DNA of 51,133 nucleotides from Clostridia bacterium (GTDB lineage Bacteria; Bacillota; Clostridia; Oscillospirales; Acutalibacteraceae). Made by a program: the position numbers and the translations under genes. Every line of letters begins with the position of its first letter. The stretch's first letter is position 1. The stretch spans positions 1 to 51,133 of the forward strand of contig JAFTLT010000015.1 of NCBI GenBank assembly GCA_017452785.1, written 5' to 3'. Below, one piece after another: positions 4,282-42,255 of this stretch. Under the pieces are notes generated by a model that saw only the letters and a list, made by a program, of their open reading frames with translations, was not told the origin of the DNA and ran no database searches.

Positions 4282-4382
4282 TAGTTTGTCTTGTTTGCAA
4301 GGTTATTATAACACCCTTATGTCAAAACTATGTGAAATTTCGGGCATATTTTGTACTTTTTTTCACATAAATCAAATATTTA

Positions 4383-28481: not shown

Positions 28482-31400
28482 ATGAAGAAAATAAAAAATA
28501 TAGCCGCAACAGCCCTTTGCGTGCTATTGCTTTGTGCAATATGGTCGCTTAATGCTTTTGCATATTCTGTTGACAGCTCCCTTATGACAGAAAAAAGAGG
28601 CAATGAAACATATGAATACTTTATATCTCAGGGCGAGGCGGTTATTTTTAATGCTTCTGTTAAAGGTGATATAACTCTGCCTGAAACTCTGGGAGGCTAT
28701 AAAGTTAAAGAAATATTTGAACGAGCCTTCAACTTTAACACAGAGCTGACCGGTGTAACTGTGCCGGGGAACATAGAGGTTATAGGAAAAAGTGCATTTT
28801 CAAATTGCCACAGACTTGAAAAGGTTGTTTTGCATGAGGGTGTCAGGGTTATAGCAGATTATGCCTTTGATACTTTTTATGAGGAAGATACCGGAAATGC
28901 ATATTGCTCATCTATTAAAGAACTCAGTCTGCCTGATTCCGTTGAATATATAGGCTCAGGTGCTTTTTCAGACAGTGAAATTTCAGGTCAGCTGAAATTG
29001 CCCGAAAGCCTGAAAGAAATAGGCAGTTATGCGTTTAATTACACTAATATCACAGAGGTTTATATCCCTGAAGGAGTAACCGTAATCGGCACAGGTGCTT
29101 TTAACGGCTGCCCCTATCTTAAGAAAATCACAGTAGCAGACAATAACAAAAATTATGCGAGTGATGAAGACGGTGTGCTTTTCAATAAAGATAAAACTGT
29201 GATAGTCCAATATCCTAACGCATTGGCAAAGACAGTTTATGAAATTCCCGACACCGTCAGCACCATAGGTGTAAGCTGCTTTGGTGACTGCAGGGCTCTC
29301 GGAGAAATTGTCATACCCCACAGCGTGAAGAAAATCGAGGACCATGGCTTATATCTCAGAAATAACATTAAGGTGATAATACCTTTGAGTGTGAAGGAAA
29401 TAGGCTCCTTATACGGCGACTCTATGTATATATATTATGAGGGTACCCGTGAGGAATGGGAAAAGCTTGATGAAAAATGCGGGCCTCAGTTTGAAAAAAC
29501 AATTCATTTTGATTGCAAGAGTACCTCACATAATATTGAAATAACAGAAACTAAGGCTACTTGCCTTAAGAGCGCAACAAAAACAATAAGATGTTCCTGC
29601 TCGATTGAAAACACAGTCTATACCCAAAGCAGATTAGAGGGTCACGGTGAGCCTTCGAGAGTAATTGTCTCTAAAGCAACACCCGAAACTGACGGACTTA
29701 TAAATAAGGTCTGTGCGGTATGCGGTGTGGTTGACACGGTTACGCTCGAAAAGGTTGAGGCAGCAGAAATTCAAATCGAACCCTATAACGGCAAAAATAA
29801 AAAACCACGTGTCCGTGTGAAGGATGCATCGGGAGACTATATCAGCAGCACATATTATGATGTCATTTATGAGGGTACCCCGAAAGAGATTGGCATATAT
29901 CCTGTTACTGTGACATTAAAAGGTGAATATTATCAGGGCAGCCTTACAGCGGACTTCATTATATCACCTGCAATGCCGTCAAAGCTGAAGCTGAGCTTTG
30001 AGGGGAACAATGTAAAGCTCACATGGTCAAAGGTCAGCGGTGCCACAGGCTACAGAGTATATTTATATGACAATGATAACAAAAAACCGAAGGTAATTGC
30101 CAATGTAAAAAATAAAAATACCTATACTGCCACCCAAGACTACTACGGCAATGCTTTTGGATACGGCTCATTTAAATTTGCAGTTAAGCCTTATACTGTA
30201 CTGAGCGACGGCAGAACAGTTATTGGTGAATATTATATTCACAACTATGCCTACAGAAGAGTACCCGAATACGTGCAAAAGATAGGCAATGTCAGCTATG
30301 AATATTATGTTATTGACGGCGCAGCTACTATTTCGGACTTTAGCGGCAGCGGTGACATTATTATCCCCGAAAAGTTAGGCGGTTATGCAGTAAAGCATAT
30401 AGGCTCAGATGCTTTTCTAAACAGCGATATTACCTCTGCTATCATTCCTGAAGGTGTGGAAACCATAGACCAAAACGCATTTCTCAACTCAAAAATCAAG
30501 GAAATTACCATTCCGTCAACCTTAAAGGAAATAGGAAAAAATGCTTTAAGTAATTGCTATAAACTTGAAAAAATCACTGTGAACAAAGATAATACTGAGT
30601 TTTCCTCTGATGAAAACGGTGTTCTTTTTAATAAAGATAAAACCATTCTTATTTGTTATCCCGCAAATAACAAGACGGAATTTTACAAGGTACCGGATAC
30701 AGTTGTAACTATAGCCGAAGATGCTTTCAGATGTGCAGATTTATTGCAGCTTGAGTTGCCTGAGTCTCTTAAAACTATTGAAGAGAGTGCTTTTTCAGAT
30801 ATGAATAATCTCAAAGAGCTGAAGCTGCCTTCGGGTCTTGAAAAAATAGGCGGCAGCGCTTTCTTTAGTTGCGGCAGTCTTGAAAGCATGGTTATTCCTC
30901 AGGGTGTAAAAGAAATCCCGGCAGGACTTTTTACACATTGCGGCAAGCTGAAAACAGTTATAATTCCCGATAGTGTTGTTTCTATAGGCAAAATTGTTTT
31001 CGGATACATTACTGTGGAATTCGTGGGCTATTGCGGAAGTAAGCAGCAGTGGCAAAGCATTGAAAACAGCAGCTCTCACGGCACGACAAACCTGCACTAT
31101 AACTGGCACAGCTTTGAAGAGCACGCTTTTAAAAAGGTATATGAAAAGCCGGCAGACTGCTATTATGACGGGCAGATAGGCTATGCCTGTGCTTGCGGTG
31201 CTGAAAAGACTGAAACGATAAAACGTCAGGGGCACGATAACATATGCACAGCCTTGAAAAAGGCAACAGCTGAAGTGAGGGGAATAGGCATAAATGAGTG
31301 CCGTAAATGCGGCGAAATCGGGCGTGCTTATATTGGTAGCGTTAAAGTCGAGCTGTATCCAAGCGGCAAAATGATTTATAACGGGAAGGTGCAAAAGCCT

Positions 31401-32132
31401 GAATACAGTGTAATGAGTGGCTATAATATTTCTCTTAAAGAAAATGTGGATTATACGGTGACTTATTCTGAGCCTCAGAGCAAAAAAATAGGCAAATATA
31501 AAATCAGATTTATCAGCACTGAAAATAGCCTTTACAGCTTTGATATTACGGCAGAGTACAGCATTGTGCCTGCAGGAACACAAAAGATAACTGCAAAATC
31601 AGGCAAAAACAGCATAAAACTCACATGGCAAAAGGTGGAAAACGCCACAGGCTACAGAGTGTATAGATACGATACATCCAAAAGTCAGTGGGTGAAGCTG
31701 ACCTCAACAAAATCGCTTAGCTACACTGCAAATAAGCTGAGCGAAGGCACCAAGTATAAATTTTATGTCAGAGCCTACACTAAACTGAGCGACGGCACCG
31801 TTATCTGGAGCAGCAGTAAGGTTAAACGTGAGTTTTCAACTACGCCGCCTACGCCAAAGAATTTTGCCGTTTCCTCCAAAGAAAAAAATACGGTTTCCCT
31901 TTCTTGGGATTATATAGACTGTGCAGACGGTTACACTGTGCTTTATGCTACGAGTAAAAACGGCAAATATAAAAAGCTTACAGGCACAGATAATAACAAT
32001 ATGACAAGTTTCAATGTCAAAGGTCTCAAGAGTGGAAAAACCTATTATTTCAAAGTCAGAGCCTACACTGAAGCTTATCCCGAAAATATCAGAAGCTCCT
32101 ATACAGCCGTTAAAAGCATCAAGATAAAATAA
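28482..32132 (+). CDS. Giant exported BspA-like LRR / Ig-like / Fn3 protein 2
   Basis: 1216 residues with the same architecture as protein 1. Signal peptide (~1-28), first BspA-type LRR block (about 55-300, units such as VIGKSAFSNCHRLEKVVL), Cys-rich segment (KATCLKSATKTIRCSCS, CAVCG), Ig-like domain and Fn3 (LKLSFEGNNVKLTWSKVSGA). Then a second LRR block (about 620-860), Cys-rich segment (PADCYYDGQIGYACACG, CRKCG), Ig-like domain and two Fn3 domains to the C-terminus. The two Cys-rich segments, which hold paired CxC/CxxC, recur at the same place in each half, pointing to an ancestral internal duplication followed by duplication of the whole gene. Adhesion or ligand display outside the cell is likely. 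Start supported by AAGGAGG. Confidence 0.88.
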   Translation: MKKIKNIAATALCVLLLCAIWSLNAFAYSVDSSLMTEKRGNETYEYFISQGEAVIFNASVKGDITLPETLGGYKVKEIFERAFNFNTELTGVTVPGNIEVIGKSAFSNCHRLEKVVLHEGVRVIADYAFDTFYEEDTGNAYCSSIKELSLPDSVEYIGSGAFSDSEISGQLKLPESLKEIGSYAFNYTNITEVYIPEGVTVIGTGAFNGCPYLKKITVADNNKNYASDEDGVLFNKDKTVIVQYPNALAKTVYEIPDTVSTIGVSCFGDCRALGEIVIPHSVKKIEDHGLYLRNNIKVIIPLSVKEIGSLYGDSMYIYYEGTREEWEKLDEKCGPQFEKTIHFDCKSTSHNIEITETKATCLKSATKTIRCSCSIENTVYTQSRLEGHGEPSRVIVSKATPETDGLINKVCAVCGVVDTVTLEKVEAAEIQIEPYNGKNKKPRVRVKDASGDYISSTYYDVIYEGTPKEIGIYPVTVTLKGEYYQGSLTADFIISPAMPSKLKLSFEGNNVKLTWSKVSGATGYRVYLYDNDNKKPKVIANVKNKNTYTATQDYYGNAFGYGSFKFAVKPYTVLSDGRTVIGEYYIHNYAYRRVPEYVQKIGNVSYEYYVIDGAATISDFSGSGDIIIPEKLGGYAVKHIGSDAFLNSDITSAIIPEGVETIDQNAFLNSKIKEITIPSTLKEIGKNALSNCYKLEKITVNKDNTEFSSDENGVLFNKDKTILICYPANNKTEFYKVPDTVVTIAEDAFRCADLLQLELPESLKTIEESAFSDMNNLKELKLPSGLEKIGGSAFFSCGSLESMVIPQGVKEIPAGLFTHCGKLKTVIIPDSVVSIGKIVFGYITVEFVGYCGSKQQWQSIENSSSHGTTNLHYNWHSFEEHAFKKVYEKPADCYYDGQIGYACACGAEKTETIKRQGHDNICTALKKATAEVRGIGINECRKCGEIGRAYIGSVKVELYPSGKMIYNGKVQKPEYSVMSGYNISLKENVDYTVTYSEPQSKKIGKYKIRFISTENSLYSFDITAEYSIVPAGTQKITAKSGKNSIKLTWQKVENATGYRVYRYDTSKSQWVKLTSTKSLSYTANKLSEGTKYKFYVRAYTKLSDGTVIWSSSKVKREFSTTPPTPKNFAVSSKEKNTVSLSWDYIDCADGYTVLYATSKNGKYKKLTGTDNNNMTSFNVKGLKSGKTYYFKVRAYTEAYPENIRSSYTAVKSIKIK

Positions 32133-32367: not shown

Positions 32368-32458
32368 GGAGAAGTACTCAAGTTGGTGACGAGGCGCCCC
32401 TGCTAAGGGCGTAGGTCGGGTAACCGGCGCAGGAGTTCGAGTCTCCTCTTCTCCGCCA
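32368..32458 (+). tRNA. tRNA-Ser (anticodon GCU)
   Basis: Acceptor GGAGAAG pairs with CTTCTCC, discriminator G, CCA encoded. Anticodon loop CTGCTAA within CGCCC/GGGCG. Long variable arm (GTCGGGTAACCGGC) and T-arm AGGAGTTCGAGTCTCCT. 38 bp after the first tRNA-Ser, same transcript. Confidence 0.96.
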
Positions 32459-32460
32459 TG

Positions 32461-32501
32461 TAAAAAGCCTCTTTTGTCTACCTGACAAAAGAGGCTTTTT
32501 A
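32461..32501 (+). terminator. tRNA operon terminator
   Basis: A perfect stem of about 17 bp: AAAAAGCCTCTTTTGTC pairs with GACAAAAGAGGCTTTTT around TACCT. Its last bases are also the first bases of the hairpin array that follows. Confidence 0.9.
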
Positions 32502-32680
32502 CAATGATATCCGTTCCTTGCGGAACGGGTGAAATATCTTCGATATGATATCCACCTTCGGTGGATGATATATGCCTTCGGCATATGAAGGAACGGATAT
32601 TATATCATGCTTGCCGCAGGCAAGTATATCATGCGGCAACGCCGCATATCATATCGCGTCAGCGATATATCATTGTAAAA
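32497..32680. repeat. Seven-hairpin array bounded by a 14-bp inverted repeat
   Basis: TTTTACAATGATAT (32497-32510) and its exact complement ATATCATTGTAAAA (32667-32680) enclose seven adjacent hairpins. Stems: CCGTTCC, ATATC, ATCCACC, ATATGCC, CTTGCC, ATGCGGC and ATATCGC, each with a 3-4 nt loop (TTGC, TTC, GCA, AAC or GTCA). ATGATAT links the units on the left and ATATCAT on the right. ATATCCGTTCC (32507-32517) can alternatively pair with GGAACGGATAT (32590-32600). The right terminal repeat contributes the -35 of the downstream gene. Confidence 0.9.
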
Positions 32681-32701
32681 CACATCAAATTGTGATACAA
32701 T
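32673..32701 (+). promoter_or_regulatory. Promoter of four-helix-bundle gene 1
   Basis: TTGTAA (32673-32678) lies inside the right terminal repeat of the hairpin array; 17 bp on is TACAAT (32696-32701), 22 bp before the start codon. Confidence 0.65.
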
Positions 32702-32723
32702 ACTAGCGAAAGAAGGTACTATT

Positions 32724-33077
32724 ATGTCTGAAAACAAATTACTTGACTTATCTTTTGAATTTGCAGTTGCGATCGTAAATCTTGTAGATGGCGTAACTGC
32801 ACCCAAGAGTTCATATATGACAGACCAGCTTGCAAGAGCCGGCACATCGGTTGGTGCTAATATTCACGAAGCGCAGTATGCGCATAGCAAGAAGGATTTT
32901 GTGGCAAAGTTAGAGATTGCGCTCAAGGAATCGAACGAAACAAGCTATTGGCTGAAGCTTATGTTTGAAACCAAAAGAATTAATTCGCAAACATATCAAT
33001 ATACAGAAAAACTGTGCGGCAATATTCGGAGACTTTTAATTGCATCCTGCATAACAGTAAAGGAAGGCAAACAGTGA
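32724..33077 (+). CDS. Four-helix bundle protein (S23/IVS-encoded type), copy 1
   Basis: 117 residues, all-helical. The family signature is present: LARAGTSVGANIHEAQYAHSKKDF, then IALKESNETSYWLKL. Relatives are encoded in intervening sequences of 23S rRNA and stand alone in many genomes; the fold resembles Avd of diversity-generating retroelements. Neither rRNA nor a reverse transcriptase is near here. It lies directly after a seven-hairpin array that provides part of its promoter, and its stop overlaps the start of a second small gene (GTGA), so the two are translationally coupled. A second hairpin array follows the pair. Role unknown; RNA or DNA hairpin binding is a plausible inference. Confidence 0.9.
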   Translation: MSENKLLDLSFEFAVAIVNLVDGVTAPKSSYMTDQLARAGTSVGANIHEAQYAHSKKDFVAKLEIALKESNETSYWLKLMFETKRINSQTYQYTEKLCGNIRRLLIASCITVKEGKQ

Positions 33078-33325
33078 AACTTATTATTAAGATTACCGAT
33101 GATGAATATAAAATGTTAAAGGCATATGCAGCTGCTAAAAGAAAATATGAAGTCGGCAAAAGATTTCCGGTTGATAAAGCAATTGCGGAGATGGTTTCTA
33201 TTGGTCTTGAAGCTATTTCTGAAACTATTATTTGGGATGAATACGGGAATTCGGTTGACTGGAATACATATTGTGAAAATAATATTGACGAATCCAGAGA
33301 GCGACAAATTTATGAGAAATACTAA
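33074..33325 (+). CDS. Small protein coupled to four-helix-bundle gene 1
   Basis: 83 residues from the GTG at 33074, which overlaps the preceding TGA and has AAGGAAGG 6 bp upstream. A longer reading from 33014 inside the previous gene is unlikely. N-terminal KLIIKITDDEYKMLKAYAAAKR looks like a strand followed by a helix; then a basic stretch, VDKAIAEMVSIGLEA, and an acidic/aromatic tail (WDEYGNSVDWNTYCENN). This could be a ribbon-helix-helix-like or partner protein, but I do not recognise a family. Coupling to the four-helix protein is the main clue to function. Confidence 0.7.
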   Translation: MKLIIKITDDEYKMLKAYAAAKRKYEVGKRFPVDKAIAEMVSIGLEAISETIIWDEYGNSVDWNTYCENNIDESRERQIYEKY

Positions 33326-33403
33326 TGCTACTTTTAGGCTTTCTTACCTTGTTTCTGCTACTTTTAGTCAGTCTTTCGCATGTAAAAAGACTCTTTTTTG
33401 AAC
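33326..33403 (+). other. Short direct repeats after the four-helix module
   Basis: GCTACTTTTAG occurs at 33327-33337 and 33357-33367, a 30-bp period, then AAAAAGACTCTTTTTT forms a short A/T hairpin. No gene. Confidence 0.45.
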
Positions 33404-33498
33404 TAAGTGTGCCTTATGGCACGATAAGCACACCTTCGTTGCGTGAAGAGATGCTTCGCATCGTGAAGTGCCTACGGGCATGGATTGCACACTACTTA
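33404..33498. repeat. Second hairpin array, closing the four-helix module
   Basis: Outer arms TAAGTGTGC (33404-33412) and GCACACTACTTA (33487-33498) pair with a 3-nt bulge. Inside are hairpins GTGCC-TTAT-GGCAC (33409-33422), GATGC-TTC-GCATC (33440-33452) and TGCC-TACG-GGCA (33469-33480), joined by GTGAAG linkers. It overlaps the stop codon of the convergent flavoprotein gene. Different core sequence but same design as the array at 32.5 kb. Confidence 0.75.
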
Positions 33499-34787
33499 AT
33501 ATCTTTATTGGCAGGGCCGTCAAGGACTCTGCCGTTTTCATTGAATCTTGAGCCGTGGCAGGGGCAGTCCCAGCTTTTTTCGGCAGAGTTCCATTTAAGT
33601 GCACAGCCTAAGTGACTGCATCGCTTCTTTGTGGGGGTGAGAAAATTCAGGGCTGTTTCTGCACCGTTTAAGAAAAGCTGAGGCTTTATCATGCTTCTGT
33701 GAGGGGAGAAGGCTTCTTCATAGATGCTATTTTTCCCTTGAAGCATATCACTTAAAATCATAGCGGCACACATTGCACCTGTCATGCCCCATTTGTTAAA
33801 GCCTGTCATAACATACATATCATGGGTTCTTTTGCTGTAATGACCGATATAGGGTGCACCGTCAAGGGTGATAGGGTCCTGAGCTGCCCAATGATATCTT
33901 TCTTTTGCGGTGGGGTAGTGCTTTTCTTTGAAGGCACGAAGCTCAATATATCCGCCGCCCTTTTTGCCGGTACGGTGGGAGCCACCGCCCAAAAGAAGAA
34001 GCTCACCGTAATTGCGAAAGGACAGCCCTTTATCATTTTCGTCAATATACATTCCGTCTGATTTTTCAGCCCCCTCAAGGGCAAGGACATAAGAACGGCT
34101 CTGATACATTTTCATAAAATAACTGCCGTGGGTGTCTATAAAAGGAAAGTGGGTTGCCACCACAATTTTTTCGGCGGTGATTGTGCCCTTATCTGTTACT
34201 GCAATGTTACCGTGCACTTCTTTTACGAAGGTGTTTTCGTATATATTCAGTCCGTCAGCTATTGTGCTGAGAAATTTAAGTGGGTGAAACTGCGCCTGAT
34301 TTTCACACATGACTGCACCAATGCTGTTTATGGGCAAGGGCACGGTTTTCACATATTTCATGGGTACTCCTATACTCTGTGCTGCCTGAAGCTCTTTCTC
34401 TAATTTTTTCATATTGCCTTGGCTGTAAACGAAGTTTTGCTTTGTTTCAAAGTCACAGTCAATGTCTTTGCTCATTTCACGGAATTTTTCGAGAGCCTGA
34501 CGGTTGGCTTCATAATAGAGGCGAGCTTTATCTGAGCCGTAATTTTTAATGAGCTTGTCAAATATCAGGGAGTGCTGATAGGTTATTTTTGCCGTGGTGT
34601 TGCCCGTGACTCCTGAACAGATTTTGTCTTTTTCCACTAAGATATAGTCTATGCCCTTTTCTTTTAAAAAGTAAGCCGTCAGCAAGCCTGCAATGCCGCC
34701 GCCTATAATGAGGACATCGGTTTTTGTGTCGCCCTGAAGCTTTGGGAAAGAGGGTAGATTTACACCCTCGTGCCACGGACTTTTCAT
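33492..34787 (-). CDS. FAD-dependent oxidoreductase with C-terminal Rieske domain
   Basis: 431 residues. The N-terminal dinucleotide fold has VLIIGGGIAGLLTAYFLKEKG (split by the usual spacing), then DadA-like oxidase segments (GNTTAKITYQHSLIFD, GFNKWGMTGAMCAA). The C-terminal Rieske domain has Cys390-x-His392 and Cys408-x2-His411 (CSHLGC...CPCHGSRF) with 15 residues between, fitting a [2Fe-2S] cluster. The protein probably oxidises an amine or similar substrate and passes electrons through the Rieske centre; substrate unknown. Cytoplasmic, no signal peptide. Its last codons lie inside the hairpin array, so the array inserted at or has replaced the natural 3' boundary. It stands alone. Confidence 0.92.
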   Translation of the reverse strand: MKSPWHEGVNLPSFPKLQGDTKTDVLIIGGGIAGLLTAYFLKEKGIDYILVEKDKICSGVTGNTTAKITYQHSLIFDKLIKNYGSDKARLYYEANRQALEKFREMSKDIDCDFETKQNFVYSQGNMKKLEKELQAAQSIGVPMKYVKTVPLPINSIGAVMCENQAQFHPLKFLSTIADGLNIYENTFVKEVHGNIAVTDKGTITAEKIVVATHFPFIDTHGSYFMKMYQSRSYVLALEGAEKSDGMYIDENDKGLSFRNYGELLLLGGGSHRTGKKGGGYIELRAFKEKHYPTAKERYHWAAQDPITLDGAPYIGHYSKRTHDMYVMTGFNKWGMTGAMCAAMILSDMLQGKNSIYEEAFSPHRSMIKPQLFLNGAETALNFLTPTKKRCSHLGCALKWNSAEKSWDCPCHGSRFNENGRVLDGPANKDIK

Positions 34788-41642: not shown

Positions 41643-41680
41643 GAGTGCAGAATGCAGAGTGCAGAACGCAGAGTGGGCGG
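41643..41680 (+). repeat. Heptamer repeat, copy 2 (left bracket of inserted unit)
   Basis: GAGTGCAGAATGCAGAGTGC followed by AGAACGCAGAGTGGGCGG. It starts 4 bases after the hydG stop and is the inverse partner of 42219-42255. Confidence 0.85.
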
Positions 41681-41773
41681 GGAAGTTTATGCTGACTTGT
41701 GCTTTGATGCTACCGAGAAAATTGGCGTTTTGCGAAAGAACAAAAATTAATTATGCACTAAAAGGGACTTCAT

Positions 41774-42124
41774 ATGAAAAGTATAATTGAAAGTAAAAGT
41801 TTTGATTTCGCTATAAGGATTGTTAATCTTTATAAACACCTGACAATTGATAAAAAAGAGTTTGTTTTGTCAAAACAGTTATTACGTAGTGGAACAAGTA
41901 TAGGAGCAAATGTTTCTGAGGGCGAAAAAGGACAGACAAAGCCCGACTTTAATACAAAAATGAGTATTGCCCTGAAAGAAGCAAACGAAACATATTACTG
42001 GCTACGACTTCTGTATAAAACTGAATTTTTAACCGAAAAAGAATTTAAAAGTATGGAAAAAGATATAGACGAAATAATTGCAATATTGGTTTCGATATGT
42101 AAGAAAACACAGAAATCGAAGTAA
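41774..42124 (+). CDS. Four-helix bundle protein (S23/IVS-encoded type), copy 2
   Basis: 116 residues. Same family as the protein at 32724: LLRSGTSIGANVSEGEKGQTKPDF and IALKEANETYYWLRLLYKT. The two share the core motif but are otherwise quite divergent, so this is not a recent duplication. AAAGGG lies 7 bp before the ATG. The gene sits inside the hydrogenase maturation operon, between hydG and hydF, and is bracketed by inverted heptamer repeats, as if the unit was inserted. No second small gene is coupled to it here. Function unknown. Confidence 0.9.
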   Translation: MKSIIESKSFDFAIRIVNLYKHLTIDKKEFVLSKQLLRSGTSIGANVSEGEKGQTKPDFNTKMSIALKEANETYYWLRLLYKTEFLTEKEFKSMEKDIDEIIAILVSICKKTQKSK

Positions 42125-42218
42125 GTGTAGAATAATTTATACTTTACACCATCGATAAAAGTGACACTAAAAAAGATTATGCAGAGTGTGAATGTAAAGC
42201 AGAAATTGACTGTCTAAT

Positions 42219-42255
42219 CCGTTCTGCGTTCTGCACTCTGCGTTCTGCACTTTTC
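42219..42255 (-). repeat. Heptamer repeat, copy 3 (right bracket of inserted unit)
   Basis: On the minus strand: AAGTGCAGAACGCAGAGTGC then AGAACGCAGAACGG. Inverted relative to copy 2. It ends 13 bases before the hydF start, leaving just enough room for the AAGGAGG site. Confidence 0.85.

Follow-up and report, generated by a model that had tools for sequence, protein, structure and literature searches.

Integrons are the textbook platform for gathering and expressing single genes. For the S23 four-helix-bundle family (PF05635), excerpts of three reports describe inverted ends of the Coxiella 23S intervening sequence (PMC4990558), open reading frames (ORFs) for IVP within rRNA insertions of candidate phyla radiation (CPR) bacteria (PMC11270868), and a resemblance of PF05635 to Avd (PMC10053308). 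An excerpt of PMC2864571 tabulates Gut-1 as an RNA of the human gut only and considers it a likely noncoding RNA. Here, we describe a locus that joins an S23 gene to a Gut-1-like hairpin array on a 51,133-nucleotide stretch of a Clostridia bacterium (GCA_017452785.1, contig JAFTLT010000015.1, family Acutalibacteraceae), analyzed whole and referred to as the window. A unit of about 0.9 kb (32459-33380) stands there directly 3′ of a tRNA-Ser(GCU) gene. The locus is likely one copy of a mobile gene-cassette unit lodged between the 3′ end of a stable-RNA gene and that gene's native terminator, and our best reading of the whole is an integron-like cassette system at stable-RNA 3′ ends.

The unit resembles integron cassettes in its varied single-gene cargo, common 3′ motif, head-to-tail units and structured sites. 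However, integrons use an IntI-type integrase, for which 35 genomes of the window's genus gave no protein above cutoff, whereas the unit would enter at the 3′ ends of many tRNA, tmRNA and RNase P RNA genes and carries its own terminator, promoter and often S23. Its right-end motif, R, is a direct repeat after the cargo, where integrons have attC, an imperfect palindrome that includes conserved core sites, and its array is palindromic in outline but lies between a terminator-like hairpin (T) and the promoter. The 23S rRNA intervening sequences share the S23 family (PF05635, TIGR02436), the association with stable-RNA genes and inverted flanks, but the unit stands behind tRNA-type 3′ ends rather than inside rRNA helices, and adds cargo, promoter and terminator. 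Like genomic islands and integrative and conjugative elements integrated at tRNA genes, it uses tRNA and tmRNA 3′ ends; unlike them, it spans only about 0.9 kb, with no integrase seen in the unit and no duplicated tRNA 3′ segment in R. Repetitive extragenic palindromes (REP) and bacterial interspersed mosaic elements with REP-associated tyrosine transposases, as well as pneumococcal BOX, also consist of modular intergenic hairpins with many gene-less copies; the unit differs in its mirror-image linker halves, its fixed cassette place and the lack of a Y1 match in the window's genome. Diversity-generating retroelements with Avd share the S23/Avd-type four-helix protein, but 13 of 15 genomes gave no reverse transcriptase. 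Keyword searches of the open-access literature returned no paper that we recognized as describing the unit. Two of its parts do satisfy a known definition, S23 by protein family and the array by its Gut-1 score, but the unit fits none of the other tested family definitions in full, and we rate it as new as a system.

Recurrence and Layout of the Unit

Comparison of relatives gives, with high confidence, an anatomy in which the parts recur in the order stable-RNA gene (ending in CCA), T, seven-hairpin array, promoter, S23 gene, coupled cargo gene, R and next terminator. An S23 protein search of species genomes returned 453 relatives, and the best 80 with their flanks were analyzed together with the window (81 loci, L numbers below; genomes carry G numbers). 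Near relatives are over-represented among these loci because only the best 80 were retained. Most come from uncultured Clostridia of the ruminant gut; phages gave two weak partial DNA matches, and the S23 relatives in 16 plasmid records all fall below 60% identity. S23 is under purifying selection (median dN/dS 0.035; 1,192 pairs past a divergence filter, 79 sequences). A strict array pattern lies upstream of S23 in 71 of the 81 loci. Six others have too little upstream DNA, and four are off-pattern: L136 has a Gut-1 match, L096 can be aligned with other arrays, and L133 and L080 hold array remnants by eye.

The S23 product of the window scores 85 bits against PF05635 (cutoff 33.8) and also matches TIGR02436. 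The end of the array forms the −35 box of its promoter (TTGTAA, 32673-32678), 17 nt ahead of the −10 box TACAAT (32696-32701); the commonest form among the loci is TTGAAA with the same spacing (37 of 81). The original prediction, made from the letters alone, had described this −35 box, the GTGA-coupled gene pair and the link of array and gene in what might be a mobile system. All three hold, and hairpin arrays, which it proposed to look for in homologue flanks, lie upstream of S23 in most loci. It also had the gene pair enclosed by two arrays of the same design. This is incorrect; the unit extends from the CCA of the tRNA as far as R, and its second gene is exchangeable cargo. Hairpins and outer complementary arms do exist on the right (33404-33498), but the linkers are of a GTGAAG type, the array has roughly half the length of the left one, and the region folds weakly (z = −1.60 for 33375-33500, equaled or exceeded by 18 of 200 shuffles; the best fold differs from the hairpin array). 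The right array was ruled out as the right terminus of the unit by its other linker family and by the conserved ending at R.

Anchoring at Stable-RNA Genes

In 64 of the 81 loci, ARAGORN found a same-strand tRNA or tmRNA gene no more than 900 bp upstream. These anchors comprise 13 tRNA amino-acid types and, three times, tmRNA. The RNA gene ends 228-278 bp ahead of the S23 start in 53 of the 64; in the other 11, the distance exceeds 300 bp owing to inserts or extra units. The unit also stands behind RNase P RNA (L114) and, by eye, behind tRNA 3′ fragments (L102, L113). Altogether, 72 loci include 340 bp or more of upstream DNA, and in 67 of them the unit follows a stable-RNA gene or its 3′ part. 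For other S23 genes of the genus, a tRNA lies within 600 bp in two of the 28 distinct genes scored. Upstream of the unit in L113, a 362-aa ORF resembling a phage-type integrase (by eye) ends near the tRNA 3′ fragment; this tRNA may therefore also have been the entry point of a prophage.

The left boundary is sharp. A T-like hairpin follows the CCA directly in most relatives, while genus relatives often have an identical CCA with unrelated native terminators behind it. Of 30 tRNA-Ser loci fetched from genus relatives, 27 were readable, and 17 of these show, by eye, an unrelated terminator alone past the CCA. Occupied and empty sites part directly after the CCA; at the empty site in G005, the 259-bp tRNA stretch up to that point is 100% identical to the window. 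T plus array occurs at five sites: the window, L185 (a Gut-1 unit), L173 and L176 (other linker families) and L194 (array without S23). Another five hold remnants (L172, L174, L179, L189, L196), in L172 only the S23 3′ end plus cargo resembling that of L079. Two units from different species genomes, L087 behind tRNA-His and L093 behind tRNA-Tyr, match at 99.0% identity over 1,354 bp; the match extends roughly 25 bases into the tRNA ends, which are similar, before it stops. T would restore termination for the tRNA.

Similar half terminators occur left and right in the window, which raised the possibility of a target-site duplication of the terminator. This was rejected, because left and right stems mostly differ in relatives by eye (L074 is an exception).

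Hairpin Array and Its Relation to Gut-1

The array strand folds at −81.9 kcal/mol (z = −8.59, none of 200 shuffles as good). Its seven hairpins and mirrored linkers can be read directly, as first described, and its 14-nt inverted ends are perfect (32497-32510 and 32667-32680). As array termini, these ends need correction: the inversion is perfect, but the outermost bases (32497-32503) belong to the neighboring hairpin T. Sixty-six arrays were parsed and 55 aligned, five being outside the length range and six more omitted (L107, L118, L123, L131, L139, L140). The structure is paired in 98.0% of cells, which count sequences rather than events, and both partners have changed in 23 pairs. The covariation score was 0.217 against 0.091 in shuffles (none of 500 as high) and at most 0.062 for slid versions, over which the tested structure is favored in that it was derived from the same alignment plus pairs added by eye. 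G·T cells outnumber A·C cells (88 to 18, always-G·T pairs excluded), an excess that suggests folding of the coding (top) strand.

The left half of the array matches the Rfam model Gut-1 (RF01706, 32502-32576) with 68.2 bits against a gathering score of 50. Among 18 relatives scanned, eight exceed the threshold in the left array (L068, L069, L078, L079, L084, L088, L091, L126); the others fall under the Rfam cutoff yet follow the same plan in the alignment. Above threshold are also an array between tRNA genes in L082 and the right-hand arrays of L074 and L100. On control genomes, the model gave matches at E ≤ 10 in nine of 14, none over the cutoff. The window's genome holds 40 Gut-1-like matches, 32 at E ≤ 1e-3 and four over the Rfam cutoff. 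Thirty were fetched; two are the window array itself, and 28 lie at no S23 site. The original prediction held that arrays found mostly without the gene would speak against their link. That is partly the case, since 28 of 30 matches in the window's own genome lack S23 and R also ends cassettes without it. These 28 (L009-L016, L018-L037; L022 and L037 are one array) fall into several linker families, and several stand directly behind the terminator-like hairpin of a tRNA or other gene.

The likely promoter begins where the array ends, which should leave the array out of the S23 transcript, and for that reason we favor a folded DNA site over a read-through RNA. The place between a terminator-like hairpin and a promoter speaks against Gut-1 as an independent noncoding RNA; although the left half scores as Gut-1, which was taken as a likely stand-alone RNA, it is here half of a larger cassette array upstream of a promoter. 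Two arrays (L073, L077) have an insert of about 80 bp in common, placed identically in both, which could reflect the entry of a smaller element. A hybrid array in L222 (836-1125, reverse strand of the locus) has GTGATGC linkers in its first half and Gut-1 linkers at its end, which suggests, as read from the sequence, recombination within arrays.

Inverted flanks are also found in the wider S23 family. A further set of 29 S23 loci (25 of L038-L065, plus L002-L005) represents 28 distinct genes, L058 being the gene of L005. Of these genes, 24 have inverted short-repeat flanks above the 99th percentile of 400 control pairs taken at random, mostly coding, positions; in direct orientation, two of the 29 loci pass that mark. 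The flanks are short tandem repeats with a 7-8-nt period in inverted orientation. A second S23 gene in the window (41795-42118, region 41643-42251) has TGCAGAACGCAGAGTG-type repeats on its left and the inverted form on its right. The flank result, taken with the excerpts of PMC4990558 and PMC11270868, suggests that S23 genes commonly reside in inverted-repeat elements.

Cargo Genes and Their Proposed Exchange

An NTGA overlap joins the S23 end to the start of the next frame in 53 of 81 loci, and many relatives have AAAGGAG inside S23 a few bases ahead of the ATGA. In the window, a GTGA overlap (33074-33077) opens the cargo ORF. The S23 3′ end would thereby supply a ribosome-binding site and start codon to any cargo that follows. 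Cargo is diverse; 43 cargo ORFs have 60 aa or more and fall into 33 clusters, or 39 into 29 without four that start away from the overlap (L083, L090, L108, L133). S23 proteins of units with unrelated cargo share a median identity of 90.6% (maximum 97.4%). Pfam matches among 30 cargos include GNAT acetyltransferases (4), methyltransferases (3), Nudix, histidine phosphatase, low-molecular-weight phosphatase, DUF4279, nucleotidyltransferase and ATP-grasp; three cargos gave weaker matches and 14 none. A role of the cargo in defense was rejected, as PADLOC on 10 proteins (window S23 and cargo, eight relatives' cargos) gave nucleotidyltransferase-type matches for one cargo plus one marginal match.

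One pair of loci shows a cargo swap. L091 and L115 share a site, with tRNA-Gly(GCC) upstream and the same downstream gene. They are 93.7% identical up to position 4355, just past the cargo start codon (4351), then carry unrelated cargo, and are 80.6% identical in the flank beyond. Such junctions, together with the near-identical copies behind different tRNAs, suggest with moderate confidence that units move or swap cargo by recombination.

Right End and Tandem Units

R is a 57-bp motif past the cargo, formed by two direct half repeats that mostly end in TTTCGCA. Its seeds were chosen by eye, so the 17 copies of the hidden Markov model (HMM) and the 22 of model R1 match by construction. The alignment of 22 copies has eight invariant columns, and R has only the final CA in common with tRNA ends. 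The HMM from 17 copies found no R on the minus strand of the 81 loci. By eye, R may also resemble the S23 3′ end in inverted orientation.

A wider set of 69 distinct R copies mixes loci found by S23 with loci found by R; the proportion of copies with S23 (37 of 56) is therefore a biased frequency. Where at least 700 bp lie upstream, an ORF ends at R in 53 of 56 copies, 38 of the 56 have a tRNA or tmRNA no more than 3 kb upstream, and 19 of the 56 have no S23 in reach. A hairpin begins within 14 nt past R in 55 of 69 copies, compared with nine of 500 random (mostly coding) positions and 14 of 489 slots 56 nt past ORF stops. L217 and L227 have tRNA, Gut-1-type array, another gene and R, without S23. 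In a family survey at E ≤ 1e-4, R was present in 31 of 150 genomes and 30 of 135 genera, some seed copies included.

Units also occur in series. Two R copies lie within 1 kb on one strand in four of the 150 family genomes (G032, G063, G110, G179). The G032 locus (L070) reads S23, cargo, R, T, gene, R, T, Gut-1-type array, promoter and a further gene, which is cytidine deaminase-like by eye, making S23 and three further genes in all. L095 and L077 have a second unit with a weak R (E 0.25 and 0.13), and L221 has two T-array units in series. Integrons line up several promoterless cassettes, but the later tandem units that were read have, by eye, promoter-like sequences of their own.

Several results weigh against a mobile cassette unit with these two ends. 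Of the 81 loci, 34 have an R match past S23 at E ≤ 5; at E ≤ 1e-3 the number falls to 27, with seeds making up 17 of them. A hairpin anywhere within 70 nt past an ORF stop is common (136 of 489). The right boundary is inferred from a comparison across many units. Searches through a conserved downstream gene and in 20 stretches downstream of tRNA-Ser turned up no empty site that shares its right flank with a unit; the former search hit eight of 300 genomes at 63-69% identity, none with tRNA-Gly upstream in the analyzed stretch and two with tRNA-Met. In G005, the window's FAD/Rieske oxidoreductase gene also stands behind tRNA-Ser, but this is no clean test of the right boundary because an unrelated gene takes the place of the cassette. 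Neither member of the swap pair L091/L115 has a recognizable R, and R is truncated in L093. The overlap with the next frame is missing from 28 of 81 S23 genes. Units lie behind protein genes in L129 and L131, and nothing was recognized ahead of them in L070, L080 and L133. None of the 30 cargos scanned with Pfam matched a recombinase, transposase or reverse transcriptase. At a median dS of 1.31, synonymous divergence among the S23 relatives approaches saturation; most copies are therefore old, and some of the pattern could be due to lateral transfer combined with ordinary recombination.

The features of the window copy and its surroundings are listed in Table 1. Directly upstream of two tRNA-Ser genes lies a gene for a 1216-aa repeat protein (28482-32132) that looks secreted by eye.

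Table 1. Coordinates of the unit and adjoining features in the window
Feature	Position	Strand	Basis or remark
tRNA-Ser(GCU), anchor gene	32368..32458	+	ARAGORN; unit begins exactly past its CCA
Terminator-like hairpin T, left end of unit; 20-bp perfect arms, TTTGTCTAC-type top	32459..32503	+	T-like hairpin past the CCA in most relatives
Hairpin array, seven hairpins; ATGATAT linkers in left half, ATATCAT in right half	32504..32675	+	
Sigma-70-type promoter	32673..32701	+	Sequence by direct reading; layout common to relatives
S23 / four-helix-bundle gene, 117 aa	32724..33077	+	PF05635 5.1e-24, TIGR02436 5.1e-26
Shine-Dalgarno-like AAGGAAGG (33060-33067) in S23 3′ end, plus cargo GTG start	33060..33076	+	Direct reading
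Cargo gene, 83 aa	33074..33325	+	No family in Pfam, NCBIfam, PADLOC or PHROGs
Right-end motif R, two direct half repeats of ~28 bp, end TTTCGCA	33325..33380	+	nhmmer E 2.2e-11 (copy among 17 seeds)
Incomplete terminator-like stretch past R, near copy of T left arm	33381..33399	+	19 nt, 95% identical to 32457-32475
Half-length array, GTGAAG linker family, beyond conserved unit	33401..33498	+	Compare orphan array L030
FAD-dependent oxidoreductase with C-terminal Rieske domain	33492-34787	-	

Alternative Explanations

The unit might be a true relative of integrons, in which an unrecognized integrase uses the array or R as equivalents of attI and attC and captures cassettes. Single-gene cassettes with integron-like content (acetyltransferases, Nudix, methyltransferases, DUFs), a common 3′ motif, head-to-tail units and folded sites with strand preference all fit this explanation. 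However, no protein of 35 genus genomes exceeded the cutoff of the integron integrase TIGR02249, which gave weaker matches alone, most genomes picked for R lying outside this set; moreover, the units that were read have their own promoters, and R consists of two direct half repeats instead of a palindrome. We consider such a relationship unlikely.

The 3′ ends of tRNA genes are general hotspots, and this counts for a fixed regulatory region, where a Gut-1 RNA or DNA structure controls tRNA read-through or S23 while ordinary recombination turns over the genes. The strong, conserved sense-strand fold and the view of Gut-1 as a likely noncoding RNA in the excerpt of PMC2864571 point the same way. 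Fixed regulation is nevertheless improbable: units are found after genes for 13 tRNA types, tmRNA and RNase P RNA as well as in tandem, their boundaries at the CCA and the ATGA junction are sharp, and near-identical copies follow different tRNAs.

A retroelement would explain the left junction, which coincides with a mature RNA end. In such an element, an Avd-like S23 would work with a reverse transcriptase acting in trans on an RNA intermediate, with the junction at the mature CCA end; the Avd-like PF05635 (per the excerpt of PMC10053308) and the top-strand fold with its G·T preference are consistent with this. Against it, reverse transcriptase (PF00078) was detected in two of 15 R-bearing genomes and not in the window's own, these being drafts, in which absence is not proof. 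Fourteen of the genomes were picked for carrying R (by coordinates, G035 is G032 and G037 is G154). Two of them with six and four R copies at E ≤ 1e-3 (G038, G041) gave no reverse transcriptase match, and the array lies upstream of the likely transcription start. A retroelement is accordingly very unlikely.

The spread of REP-like or miniature inverted-repeat transposable element (MITE)-like arrays by a Y1 (HUH) transposase, carrying S23 and cargo along, is highly improbable: the window's genome does have many related array matches, mostly without S23, and Y1 transposases (PF01797) occur in nine of the 15 R-bearing genomes, but six of these drafts, including the window's genome and G038, gave no match.

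Proposed Mechanism and Implications

For the mobile cassette unit, we propose the following steps. The unit would settle between the mature CCA of a stable-RNA gene and that gene's terminator, and would move or trade cargo by recombination at array, R or CA junctions. The folded top-strand array and R are candidate recombination sites, S23 may bind the folded array, as the original prediction also proposed for the hairpins, or the RNA-gene end, and units can stand head to tail, with S23 absent from some. The enzyme is probably supplied in trans, and any assignment of its identity is of low confidence. One tentative version, possible but doubtful, is an integron-like system of different design, with entry at mature 3′ ends of stable RNAs, array and R as sites, recognition by S23 and catalysis by the host. 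If this version is true, S23 proteins, including those of 23S intervening sequences and those with inverted short-repeat flanks, would be the hallmark of a single large, unrecognized class of mobile elements.

The small cassette at a tRNA end looks like an undescribed route by which gut bacteria collect and exchange genes. If confirmed, a second gene-gathering platform in gut Clostridia, differing from integrons in protein, sites and its entry at tRNA ends, would be a new route of gene exchange, and the unit would give a context to two long-standing orphans, the S23 family of 23S intervening sequences and the Gut-1 "RNA". The question of what S23 does becomes one of binding and recombination tests on defined DNA.

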